Source: Lachnospiraceae bacterium (GTDB taxonomy: Bacteria > Bacillota > Clostridia > Lachnospirales > Lachnospiraceae). From it: DNA of 64,000 bases. The stretch lies in contig JAUNCZ010000006.1 of NCBI GenBank assembly GCA_030526405.1, positions 29,629-93,628 of the forward strand, given 5' to 3'. The translations under genes were made by a program, and so were the position numbers. Positions 42,760 through 56,202 of the stretch are shown piece by piece (position 1 is the stretch's first letter; each line of letters begins with the position of its first letter). The notes under the pieces were generated by a model. That model was not told the DNA's origin. It made no database searches and saw only the letters and a program-made list of their open reading frames with translations.

Positions 42760-43944
42760 TCACTGCTCCAGGATGGCCACAGACCGTTTCAGGATTCCCT
42801 TCATCTGTGCGATACAGATCCCGTAATTGGTAAAGGGAACTCCCTGATCCATTGCTGATTTCATGCGGTAGGTAACCTCTCTCTCATTCAGCATACAGCC
42901 GCCGCAGTGGATCACCAGGGCATAAGGGGAAAGATCCTCCGGAAATCCCTTGCCTGAGCTGGTCTCAATGATCAGTTCTTTTCCTGTATGCTTCTTCAGC
43001 CAGGCCGGCAGCTTTACAGTGCCGATATCACCGCACTGTCTGTGGTGAGTACAGCCCTCGCTGATCAGAACTCTGTCTCCGTCCTTCAGTTCCTCAATGG
43101 CCTTCACACCCTTTACGGCTGTGGTAAGGAATCCCTTATATCTGGCCATAAGAATGGAAAATGAGGTAAGAGGAATATCCTCCGGCACATCCTTCGCCAC
43201 CCGTTCAAAGGCCTGACTGTCTGTGATCACCAGAGCCGGCTTCTGAGAAAGCTTTGCAAGGGCTTCCTTCACCTTGTCCTCCTTGATACCCATCACGATA
43301 CCGTCTCCATCCAGCACGTCACGGATCATCATCTGCTGGGGCAGGATCATTCTTCCTTTGGGTGCCGCCGAATCAATGGGCATCACCAGCAGAATCACAT
43401 CCTCCGGCTTCATCAGATCCCGTACCAGCACCCGTTTGCTCTCCTGGAGTTTTCCGGCTCTGGCCATCATCTCCTTCAGCTCATAGATATTGGTGTTATG
43501 GAGAGCGGATACCCAGATTTCCTTCTCCGTTGCAGATGGCACCGTCTGCAGAAGATCCGACTTATTCCAGGCCACCACATAGGGAATCTCCTTCTCCCTG
43601 AAGAGCCGGATCAGCTCCTCTTCTGTCTCTCTGAACCCTTCCGTGGCATCCACGATCAGCACCGCCAGATCCACCCGGTTCAGTGTCTGCTTTGTTTTTT
43701 TGATACGAAGCTGACCCAGGGCCCCCTCATCATCAAAGCCCGGTGTATCGATCACCACCACCGGACCTAAGGGCAGCAGCTCCATGGATTTTGTAACCGG
43801 ATCTGTAGTGGTTCCCTTTGTATCAGACACCACAGCCAGATCCTGGCCTGTGACAGCATTTACCACGCTGGATTTTCCCGCATTTCTTCTGCCGAAAAAA
43901 CCGATCTGTATTCTCTCACCGGAAGGTGTATCATTTAATCCCAT
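42760..43944 (-). CDS. hydF: [FeFe]-hydrogenase maturation GTPase HydF
   Basis: 394 residues. The N-terminal GTPase has Walker A GRRNAGKSS (residues 18-26), DTPGFDD and NKSD. The C-terminal cluster-binding domain carries the HydF ligands in the known spacing: Cys298-x-His300, then Cys347-x-x-Cys350. HydF is the scaffold on which HydE and HydG build the diiron subcluster of [FeFe]-hydrogenase. hydE and hydG are not within the window. It is the last gene of the nitrogenase-like operon, 89 bp after the NifK-like gene, which is an unusual place for it. Confidence 0.95.
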   Translation of the reverse strand: MGLNDTPSGERIQIGFFGRRNAGKSSVVNAVTGQDLAVVSDTKGTTTDPVTKSMELLPLGPVVVIDTPGFDDEGALGQLRIKKTKQTLNRVDLAVLIVDATEGFRETEEELIRLFREKEIPYVVAWNKSDLLQTVPSATEKEIWVSALHNTNIYELKEMMARAGKLQESKRVLVRDLMKPEDVILLVMPIDSAAPKGRMILPQQMMIRDVLDGDGIVMGIKEDKVKEALAKLSQKPALVITDSQAFERVAKDVPEDIPLTSFSILMARYKGFLTTAVKGVKAIEELKDGDRVLISEGCTHHRQCGDIGTVKLPAWLKKHTGKELIIETSSGKGFPEDLSPYALVIHCGGCMLNEREVTYRMKSAMDQGVPFTNYGICIAQMKGILKRSVAILEQ

Positions 43945-44033
43945 ATTTTCTCCTTTCCAACCAAGTTCCTCTGCAACCCATTATCGCAGCAAAAATTTTA
44001 CATGAAACGTAGCTTTGTTCTGCCCGCGTAACG

Positions 44034-45263
44034 TTAGTGAAGCTGCTGAAGAATCCGGGCAAATGCCTCCTCCTGAAACAGATTCACCATATCTCTTCTG
44101 AAGCAGCGACCGGAAAATGCCTGGTGAGGCAGAGAACAGAAAACTGCATCTGCCGGACAGATGGGGCGATACAGAGGATCTGCAACAATCCGCTTCGCCC
44201 TCTTAAGGGCAGCCTCCGCCTCCTCTTCCCCATAGGTCCTGATGTCCAGAGTTCCTGTCAGCACCGGATCCGCCTCCACAGGGCAGAGTACAGAACAGGT
44301 CATTCCTGTTTTTTCTGTAATAGCTGCCGCCAGAGAGCCCATGGTCACCGGCTCTCCCACCAGAGTCACCCTGCCGCCGCAGCTGCAGGCTCCCCGGTTC
44401 AGATAGGGAATCCGATTCTGGCCATCAGCTTCTGTATCCCGAAGGCATTTCAACAGTTCTTTTGCAAAACCGCCCACAGGACAGCCTGCCACCCAGGGGA
44501 TTCCAAAGGACTGTTCCAGATATCGGGCCATTGGAAAGCCGGTGGCGGATACCACCAGATTCACTGTGGATTCCAGGGCAGTTCTCAGCTGTTCCGGGGA
44601 CTCACCCATGGCCCAGCAGCTCTGAACCTTCCAGCCATCATTTTCCAGAATTTCCCGCAGGCTCTCCACAGAGCCCTCTGCAGCAAACTCCAGCGGGGTG
44701 GCACCCAGAATATTTACTGAACTCTTTATTCCCTCTGACCGAGGACATTTTCCAGCTGATTTTACCGGCCCCCCTGCAGCCACGGGATTCCTGCCTGTAA
44801 CAGAATCGGCTGTATTCCCTTCCAGAAAACACTTAGCCACCGCCAGAAAGGCCTGACCTGCACCATATACATAGTCATGCATACCGTTGGCCGGAGCAAA
44901 AAATGCAGGAATTCCTGTATCACGGGTAATCAGCTTTGCAAGAGCCGGAAAGTCCGTACCATTCATATAGGGAATAGGACTGCTGGTAAGGGCAATAAAA
45001 TCCGGTTTCAGCTGCTCTGCAGCCTCCTCCACCTCCCGGATCAGCTTCTCATCGTCTCCCATAATGGCATCCGTATTGGAAAGACCGGTGATATAGATCA
45101 GACTGTCGCTGTCATACCATCTTGTCTCATCATGTGTATTGTAGGTGGAATTGCAGCCGGAGGGATCGTGGATCACCACCATCCCACCCATCTCAAACAG
45201 AGCAGAGGCCACCCCGGATACATCCCCTGTATACACCGGAATAATTCTGTAAGAACGATTCAT
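44034..45263 (-). CDS. Nitrogenase component 1-like protein, NifK/NifN-type (module 1)
   Basis: 409 residues of the oxidoreductase/nitrogenase component 1 family. Residues 18-60 (GVASALFEMGGMVV, SGCNSTYNTHDETRWY) and TGLSNTDAIMGDDEKL align with the C-terminal half of the fused protein at 52898-55432. Cys37 sits where a P-cluster or 4Fe-4S ligand is expected. The second ligand of NifK (Cys in the ST/C-x-E segment) is missing: the protein has LTSSPIPYM there. It is probably the partner of the NifD-like protein 35 bp upstream. Substrate or cofactor role unknown; not NifK itself. Confidence 0.85.
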   Translation of the reverse strand: MNRSYRIIPVYTGDVSGVASALFEMGGMVVIHDPSGCNSTYNTHDETRWYDSDSLIYITGLSNTDAIMGDDEKLIREVEEAAEQLKPDFIALTSSPIPYMNGTDFPALAKLITRDTGIPAFFAPANGMHDYVYGAGQAFLAVAKCFLEGNTADSVTGRNPVAAGGPVKSAGKCPRSEGIKSSVNILGATPLEFAAEGSVESLREILENDGWKVQSCWAMGESPEQLRTALESTVNLVVSATGFPMARYLEQSFGIPWVAGCPVGGFAKELLKCLRDTEADGQNRIPYLNRGACSCGGRVTLVGEPVTMGSLAAAITEKTGMTCSVLCPVEADPVLTGTLDIRTYGEEEAEAALKRAKRIVADPLYRPICPADAVFCSLPHQAFSGRCFRRDMVNLFQEEAFARILQQLH

Positions 45264-55432: not shown

Positions 55433-55449
55433 TAGTACGGCTCCTTTCC

Positions 55450-56202
55450 TTATTCCTGTTCCAGTAGCATATTGGCCAGATCAAAGAATACTCTGCTGAC
55501 CTCTGAATCAGGATCGCCCTCAATTACGGTTTTTCCCTGATCCTCCCAGTAGTTGATATCATTGGATCTGGGCACCTGGCCCACAACCTTAAGACCCCTT
55601 TCCGCTGCAAATGCCTGCACCTTTTCTGTCTCATTTTCCACATTTCTGTGGTTCAGGATCAGTCCAAGCACCTTGGCATAGCTGCGATCCTCAAAATTCT
55701 TTACTGCACTGTTGATATTGTTGGCAGCATAGAGAGCCATCTTCTCTCCGGAGGTGACGATCAGCACCTTCTCCGCATAGCCCTCACGAATGGGTGCCGC
55801 AAAACCTCCGCACACCACATCTCCCAGAACATCATAGAGCACCACATCCGGCTTCTCCCGCTCAAACAGCTCCAGATCCTCCAGCAGCTGGAAGGTGGCA
55901 ATAATACCTCTGCCGGCACAGCCCAGCCCCGGTGTGGGACCGCCAGTCTCAATGCAGAGGATATTACCGAATCCAATTCTGGAAATATCCTCCAGCGTTT
56001 CCGGATCCTCATCCTTCTCCCGCATATAATTCATCACCGGCATCAAAGGCTCTCCCCCCAGCAGATTAATGGTAGAATCCGCCTTTGGATCACATCCAAT
56101 CTGGATTACCTTTTTTCCCAGCATGGCAAATGCTGCCGCCAGATTGCTGGTGATGGTAGATTTACCAATGCCGCCTTTTCCATAAATAGCAAGTTTTAAC
56201 AT
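55450..56202 (-). CDS. NifH-like iron protein (module 2)
   Basis: 250 residues, very similar to the module 1 copy. It has Walker A GKGGIGKST (9-17), GCDPKADST, Cys95 in PGLGCAGRG and Cys131 in DVLGDVVCGG, so both [4Fe-4S] ligands are present. It differs most in the C-terminal third. It is the first gene of the operon and is 17 bp before the fused component 1 gene, its likely electron acceptor. Confidence 0.93.
   Translation of the reverse strand: MLKLAIYGKGGIGKSTITSNLAAAFAMLGKKVIQIGCDPKADSTINLLGGEPLMPVMNYMREKDEDPETLEDISRIGFGNILCIETGGPTPGLGCAGRGIIATFQLLEDLELFEREKPDVVLYDVLGDVVCGGFAAPIREGYAEKVLIVTSGEKMALYAANNINSAVKNFEDRSYAKVLGLILNHRNVENETEKVQAFAAERGLKVVGQVPRSNDINYWEDQGKTVIEGDPDSEVSRVFFDLANMLLEQE

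Follow-up and report, generated by a model that had tools for sequence, protein, structure and literature searches.

A Lachnospiraceae operon joining two nitrogenase-like modules with HypCDEF and HydF: a probable HydG-independent route of [FeFe]-hydrogenase maturation

In this study, we report the analysis of an operon of 11 genes found in a stretch of 64,000 nucleotides (the window) from a Lachnospiraceae bacterium (GenBank assembly GCA_030526405.1, contig JAUNCZ010000006.1, positions 29,629 to 93,628). The operon lies on the minus strand at window positions 42760-56202 and encodes, in this order, a nitrogenase-reductase-like ATPase (NifH2), a fused nitrogenase-like catalytic protein (DK), HypF, HypC, HypD, HypE, a TM1266-family protein, a second reductase-like ATPase (NifH1), a K-like and a D-like catalytic subunit, and HydF. 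A preliminary description of the window had claimed eleven tightly packed minus-strand genes forming a single operon of two nitrogenase-like modules, HypCDEF and HydF; the coordinates were verified for every gene, and curated models for HydF, the Hyp proteins and TM1266, together with matches to PF00148 and PF00142, bear this composition out. Gaps of 17, 16 and 39 bp separate nifH2 from DK, DK from hypF and hypF from hypC, the pairs hypC/hypD, hypD/hypE, TM1266/nifH1 and nifH1/K-like overlap by 4 bp, and the gaps between the K-like and D-like genes and between the D-like gene and hydF measure 35 and 89 bp, respectively. Between hypE and TM1266, an intergenic stretch of 411 bp (47712..48122, minus strand) holds about three copies of a 136-bp repeat unit (47744-48120), the searched core of which has no other site in the window. 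An AT-rich, terminator-like hairpin on the same strand (42660..42700; 18 pairs, −22 kcal/mol, z −5.3) was found 3′ of hydF and was absent from the 22 sites given by a pattern scan. A promoter scan yielded 11 sites versus 13.3 expected by chance and was therefore uninformative.

The first nitrogenase-like module consists of NifH2, encoded by the first gene of the operon (55450..56202; PF00142, 288 bits), and DK, a protein of 844 amino acids in which a NifE-like and a NifN-like half are fused (52898..55432; PF00148, 165 bits in two stretches). The second module comprises NifH1 (46684..47436; PF00142, 297 bits), the K-like subunit or K1 (45299..46687; PF00148, 26.9 bits with a cut-off of 28.6) and the D-like subunit or D1 (44034..45263; PF00148, 101 bits). 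Motif counts are given here by locus, some genomes being present twice. The P-loop and both [4Fe-4S] cysteine motifs of NifH2 were conserved in the 103 relatives found at DK loci, and its C95 and C131 in 104 of 104 aligned rows. C94 and C130 of NifH1 were present in all 38 rows, and the motif patterns were matched in 35 (P-loop), 34 (first cysteine motif) and 37 (second) of 37 sequences, the two rows without a P-loop match being those of loci L155 and L156. In DK, C76, C133, C136, C501 and C506 were invariant (33 rows), as were C54 and C114 in the K-like protein, and C37 of the D-like protein was nearly invariant (90% or more of 24 rows). These conserved cysteines fit an iron-sulfur cluster held between the two halves, the arrangement of DPOR and NifEN; judged by the ligand positions of the cofactor, they give no sign of a FeMo-cofactor site. 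The predicted structure of DK (mean predicted local distance difference test 83.5) has the DPOR/NifEN/nitrogenase fold and that of the K-like protein the nitrogenase/NifEN/DPOR fold, so that the fold of nitrogenase component 1 was found in both models; for the D-like protein, profile matches in the PDB were NifE, NifD and BchB. DK was found fused in some lineages and as two adjacent genes in others, even within one family (L009-L022, L109-L188).

DK, NifH1 and the K-like and D-like proteins all scored under the NCBIfam cut-offs for nitrogenase, NifEN, DPOR and CfbCD, NifH2 having been scanned with Pfam only. NifH1 obtained 314 bits (cut-off 394) and the D-like protein 50 bits to NifE (cut-off 505), the K-like protein had no match, and DK reached 47 of 490 bits to BchB and 38 of 268 to CfbD. 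The best NCBIfam match of DK was NifE (113 bits, cut-off 505), in agreement with its fold, and NifEN, the nitrogenase cofactor maturase, acts on an iron cofactor too. However, DK lies far below the NifE and NifEN cut-offs, the operon has no other nif genes, and the third cysteine position usual in NifE and BchN is not conserved in DK. With DPOR (BchLNB) and CfbCD the modules share a NifH-type ATPase and a partner of the same fold, but they fall under all cut-offs and no tetrapyrrole genes accompany them in the operon. The methylthio-alkane reductase MarHDK, as presented in the available text of PMC12552129, is likewise a nitrogenase-like enzyme of this fold, whereas the context of the operon is hydrogenase and not sulfur metabolism. 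In addition, judged by the alignment, the E-like half of DK has no invariant cysteine beyond C136 and thus gives no apparent sign of ligands for a large active-site cluster.

The Hyp genes encode the carbamoyltransferase HypF (50431..52881; TIGR00143, 704 bits, cut-off 466), the chaperone HypC (50179..50391; TIGR00074, 60 bits, cut-off 48), the scaffold HypD (49130..50182; TIGR00075, 386 bits, cut-off 193) and HypE (48123..49133; TIGR02124, 429 bits, cut-off 252), which ends in a PRIC motif, the carrier of thiocyanate in known Hyp systems (PMC12130793, available text). Downstream are the small TM1266-family protein, annotated as a putative regulator of iron-only hydrogenase systems (47433..47711; TIGR03959, 101 bits, cut-off 61), for which the ATG at 47711 is a likelier start than the listed TTG at 47729, and HydF, the H-cluster maturation GTPase (42760..43944; TIGR03918, 556 bits, cut-off 326). 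The zinc-finger motif of HypF was kept in 74 of 74 linked relatives. When the relatives linked to DK were aligned, HypC had its cysteine at the second residue in 79/79 rows and the nine cysteine columns of HypD were complete in 76/76; the PRIC terminus of HypE was found in 72/72 relatives and its C336 in 73/73 aligned rows. A loose cysteine-spacing pattern for HypD (62 of 75 matched) and a start-anchored pattern for HypC (69 of 78) gave misses that we attribute to faulty patterns, since the cysteine columns are complete in the alignment. The Hyp proteins of the operon therefore look functional, with their known cysteines intact.

The genome of the host (assembly of 3.18 Mb, 94.8% complete) encodes two [FeFe]-hydrogenases, one of group A, in which the three H-cluster motifs are complete, and one of group B1. 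Of HydEFG maturation, HydE (559 bits) and HydF are both present. HydG, from which the H-cluster receives its CO and CN ligands (PMC9431212, available text), gave no match over its 312-bit cut-off in this genome; the best one, of 184 bits, corresponded to ThiH, with 501 bits to its own ThiH model. Full-length HydG matches in the family range between 472 and 962 bits, and the HydG of Clostridium drakei, used as positive control, reached 948 bits. An undetected HydG was rejected as an account of the host genome.

It might be thought that a [NiFe]-hydrogenase is the true client of the Hyp genes, their association with [FeFe] maturation being coincidental. The operon shares with the assembly of Fe(CN)2CO for [NiFe]-hydrogenase all four HypCDEF proteins with the expected cysteine motifs, and some carriers of the operon, such as Clostridium ljungdahlii, do have a [NiFe] catalytic-subunit gene (Table 1 of PMC9431212, available text). 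However, the [NiFe] large subunit (PF00374) had no match in the host, the genome in which [NiFe] genes were searched (5 of 14 control genomes were positive), and the Hyp genes are joined to nitrogenase-like genes, without hypA or hypB in the operon (no genome-wide search for these two was run). Additionally, in a gene tree of 38 rows obtained by a quick method, the operon-linked HypD sequences formed a single clade (22 rows, starred support of 100) apart from 16 other HypD of the family, taken from 16 of the 23 HypD-bearing genomes without DK. This separate clade points to a dedicated Hyp set, and service to a [NiFe]-hydrogenase is extremely unlikely as the explanation of the operon.

The occurrence of each component was then searched with profiles in 220 genomes of the host family, Lachnospiraceae. 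Matches over the cut-off were obtained for HydG in 104 genomes, HydE in 124, HydF in 124, HypD in 37 and [FeFe]-hydrogenase in 202. Strong relatives of DK (more than 500 bits, fused or split in two genes) were found in 14 of the 220; all 14 had HypD, HydE, HydF and [FeFe]-hydrogenase, and none had HydG. Among the 120 genomes with both HydE and HydF, 14 carried DK without HydG, none carried both and 7 neither, while the remaining 99 of the 106 genomes without a strong DK had HydG, the exclusion giving a Fisher p of 1.7e-13. A genome of the same genus as the host (G058) has contiguous hydE, hydG and hydF genes and lacks a strong DK match. The history of these changes was followed on a HydE tree of 61 rows (21 of 23 HydG-lacking genomes, 32 of 101 HydG-bearing ones and 8 named loci described below), where starred branches show at least 6 switches of HydG status and parsimony gives 13; DK and HydG never move the same way in the independent pairs.

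These results bear on the possibility that a divergent HydG is at work, or that HydE and HydF suffice with free CO and CN, as suggested in PMC9431212, the operon being incidental. About 1% activation without HydG is indeed cited in the available text of that work. Nevertheless, all six of the sub-threshold HydG matches that were scanned, out of a larger number, were ThiH (473-522 bits), and the presence of the operon tracks the absence of HydG, which makes this explanation highly improbable.

Beyond the family, a DK profile retrieved 491 relatives in GTDB contigs, and the loci named here are the best 80 of these 491. These loci, across which the operon recurs, were found in Lachnospiraceae, C. 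ljungdahlii, Clostridium carboxidivorans, C. drakei and Anaerobutyricum hallii, among others, and also in Olsenella (Actinomycetota), Schwartzia and a metagenome-assembled genome of the Lentisphaeria. The preliminary description had reasoned that a gene order confined to this genome would make a joint system unlikely; the order recurs in other phyla, so the arrangement is not due to chance. In the 80 named loci, nifH2 was present in 79, at least two Hyp genes in 67, a gene of the second module in 58 and TM1266 in 35, and the four loci without Hyp genes were all cut by contig ends. The pair NifH2-DK stands beside hypF in nearly all loci, and the second module often beside hydF or hydE. In one genome (G203), a group A6 hydA with NuoF-like and NuoE-like subunits adjoins the cluster, which also contains hydE and TM1266, with hydF at about 12 kb. 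For 50 of the 80 named loci, the genome was checked for HydG. It exceeded the cut-off in two, C. drakei (G234) and Clostridium thailandense (G228), and was absent from 48, C. ljungdahlii included; as at least 2 of the 50 (G224 and G259) repeat genomes of the 220, by their identical contig places, the count without HydG becomes 46 of 48. The two genomes with HydG and the operon would be useful for asking whether both routes serve different conditions.

With these linkages in view, it can be asked whether HypCDEF alone replaces HydG while the nitrogenase-like modules carry out an unrelated reduction, for example of a tetrapyrrole, and are in the operon only as neighbors. Hyp chemistry already yields iron bound to CN and CO (PMC12130793, available text), and the nitrogenase-like DPOR and CfbCD act on tetrapyrroles (PMC12552129, available text). 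Such a separation of tasks fits badly with nifH2 and the Hyp genes recurring together at the named DK loci in the proportions given above, with the operon HypD being a clade of its own, and with three HydG-less genomes that keep the second module without Hyp genes, beside TM1266 and in two of them beside hydF. We consider it very improbable.

In attention to the above, the operon probably represents a system for HydG-independent maturation of [FeFe]-hydrogenase: HypCDEF, together with two nitrogenase-like reductases, would supply an iron-CO/CN precursor to HydE and HydF. In the preliminary description, the operon was read either as a new route to [FeFe]-hydrogenase or as the source of a separate new metallocofactor. 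The former is well supported because HydG is missing, because HydG and the operon nearly exclude each other, and because the operon is linked to hydE, hydF and, in G203, hydA. The latter, in which a CN/CO-ligated iron unit would be built on nitrogenase-like scaffolds for some other enzyme with HydF as a general carrier, is not needed and nothing found favors it, although a pair of nitrogenase-like modules, each with a reductase of its own, goes beyond the machinery that the replacement of HydG calls for, and NifEN is among the proteins to which their sequence profiles and models are similar. A separate metallocofactor leaves unexplained both the loss of HydG with retention of HydE, HydF and HydA and the linkage to the hyd genes, and no conserved candidate client enzyme was seen in the operon; it is very unlikely.

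Compared with HydE-HydF-HydG maturation, the proposed HydG-independent route retains HydE, HydF, TM1266 and the client hydrogenase, and its predicted output is the same H-cluster. It differs in HydG, the tyrosine lyase giving CO, CN and Fe(CO)2CN, which is undetected in the host and rare in carriers. As happens when [NiFe]-hydrogenase is matured, HypF and HypE would convert carbamoyl phosphate to cyanide, and HypC-HypD would hold the iron. NifH2-DK might act as an ATP-driven, low-potential reductase altering the ligand set from a Hyp-type Fe(CN)2CO to a HydG-type Fe(CO)2CN; in the simplest version, it would add CO made from CO2, a conversion of which nitrogenases are capable. NifH1 with the K-like and D-like proteins may reduce or remodel the iron unit and hand it on, and HydE and HydF would complete the diiron site as usual. 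This order of steps is suggested by the gene neighborhoods, with NifH2-DK by hypF and the second module by hydF or hydE.

It must be noted that several observations weigh against this interpretation. The source of CO and the roles given to both reductases are guesses, and the division of labor is one that we infer. Only 26 of the 80 named loci contain hydE or hydF, many of the 80 being cut by contig ends, and C. drakei and C. thailandense have HydG as well as the operon. The hydA of G203 reads TSCSP at the first motif, where the group A enzyme of the host has TSCCP. The exclusion is weaker over all 220 genomes, that is, unconditioned on HydE and HydF (p = 1.0e-4), and seven genomes with HydE and HydF have neither HydG nor DK. 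The genomes are also related: the sign test on independent pairs over starred branches, with too few pairs, gave a median p of 0.125, and 27 of 58 branches are open in the HydE tree, a gene tree made by a quick method. Lastly, given its [NiFe] gene, the Hyp set of C. ljungdahlii may serve a [NiFe]-hydrogenase too.

In the accepted teaching, HydG is required for H-cluster biosynthesis. If the operon replaces it, there would be a second biological route to CO/CN-ligated iron for [FeFe]-hydrogenase, put together from [NiFe]-hydrogenase and nitrogenase-type parts. Such a route would matter for the turnover of H2 by anaerobes of the gut and rumen and could allow the tyrosine-independent production of hydrogenases in the laboratory. 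A 2022 survey (PMC9431212, available text) listed eight Clostridium acetogens with HydE and HydF, hydG being present in three and missing from five, and gave no straightforward explanation for its absence; two of the hydG-lacking species carry the operon. According to the same text, five of those acetogens have HypCDEF without HypA and HypB, C. carboxidivorans has a second HypCDE set, and the locus tags of the sole Hyp set of C. ljungdahlii run consecutively as F, C, D, E (Table 4). By order of tags, this set agrees with operon locus L126. The proposed route, if correct, would account for the hydG reported missing in industrial acetogens such as C. ljungdahlii.

Clostridium autoethanogenum is a close relative of C. 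ljungdahlii, and its electron-bifurcating [FeFe]-hydrogenase was reportedly characterized by Wang and co-workers in 2013. According to the available text of PMC9431212, a HydG is listed by motif for this species, and the available text of a transposon study of the same species (PMC9004356) has no passage on any operon gene for the terms looked up. No description of the operon, or of HydG-free maturation by it, was found in the open-licence literature searched; a subscription paper could exist. The protein families are known, whereas their joint use and a HydG-free biological route to the H-cluster precursor are undescribed in the literature searched, beyond the trace activation cited in the available text of PMC9431212. 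We regard the system as new in kind, its function being the one we infer here.

The HydG-less genomes without the operon were also inspected. The operon is carried by 14 of the 23 genomes that have HydE but lack HydG; three more show a variant with a FecCD-type ATP-binding cassette (ABC) importer and another three a variant with an Ssu-type importer. The remaining three are G011 (86% complete), G086 (no HydF) and G128 (69% complete), in the last of which hydE is close to genes for a FecCD importer, a binding protein and CbiK. The FecCD variant (L086 3532-12623, L087 3562-11654 and L097 6263-13153) occurs in G117, G134 and G175, which have neither HypD nor a strong DK and keep a NifH1-K-D module within the operon clade together with the importer and TM1266. 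Importer and module are interleaved, along with hydF in G117 and G134 and hydE in G117; G175 has no HydF over the cut-off and its hydE is on another contig. In the Ssu variant (L105 5098-10016, L089 4681-10747 and L091 4479-8575), the importer directly adjoins hydF in G048 and G181 and stands beside hydE-hydF in G142, with one gene without assignment in between.

As controls, 40 hyd neighborhoods of 5.6-19 kb each, picked from the 104 HydG-bearing genomes, were searched by BLAST, the queries being the importer permeases and binding proteins found at the HydG-less loci; importers unlike the queries would be missed in this search. Only one of the 40 was positive (G072, FecCD-type permease), and none had an Ssu-type binding protein or permease; weak generic ABC ATPase matches in several further neighborhoods were left out of the count. 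Within these queries, mere background was rejected as the reason for importers near hyd genes. In G072, the FecCD-type permease and an ABC ATPase lie between hydG and hydF (L259 10555-11499).

On the basis of these variants, it is conceivable, albeit doubtful, that the operon makes an Fe-CO/CN compound serving as a shared currency, which HydG-less importer genomes would take up. With equal doubt, G117, G134 and G175 might do so through the FecCD-type importer and the second module, and G048, G181 and G142 through the Ssu-type anion importer. As the sample is small and was chosen post hoc, precursor import is only a bold lead. Were it true, a nitrogenase-superfamily enzyme making and handling CO/CN-ligated iron would be the first case of such chemistry in the family, and gut anaerobes would cross-feed an organometallic hydrogenase precursor.

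Not all ABC-linked nitrogenase-like genes belong to the system. In a K/D tree made by a quick method from 35 of 63 loci plus the window, those of G152, G072, G143, G048 and G059 form a separate clade (starred support of 100), and they were rejected as members; HydG is present in G072 and G143. A distinct nitrogenase-like family with a FecCD importer was observed at L088 and L099-L103, in genomes with and without HydG, its five tree-placed members forming a separate clade; L103 (G004) holds a fused version that lies outside these five.

With respect to the surroundings of the operon, a Clostridiales-1 RNA on the plus strand is located upstream together with a gene for tRNA-Gln(CTG), at window positions 56997-57308. 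Just past the hairpin, a thymidylate synthase-like protein is encoded at 41778-42548, with only part of the family profile matched. Further on, two adjacent genes (37381-39974) encode a PF12225 protein (methylene-tetrahydrofolate reductase C-terminal domain) and an RnfC-like protein also containing PF12225, a pair from which the host may be an acetogen.

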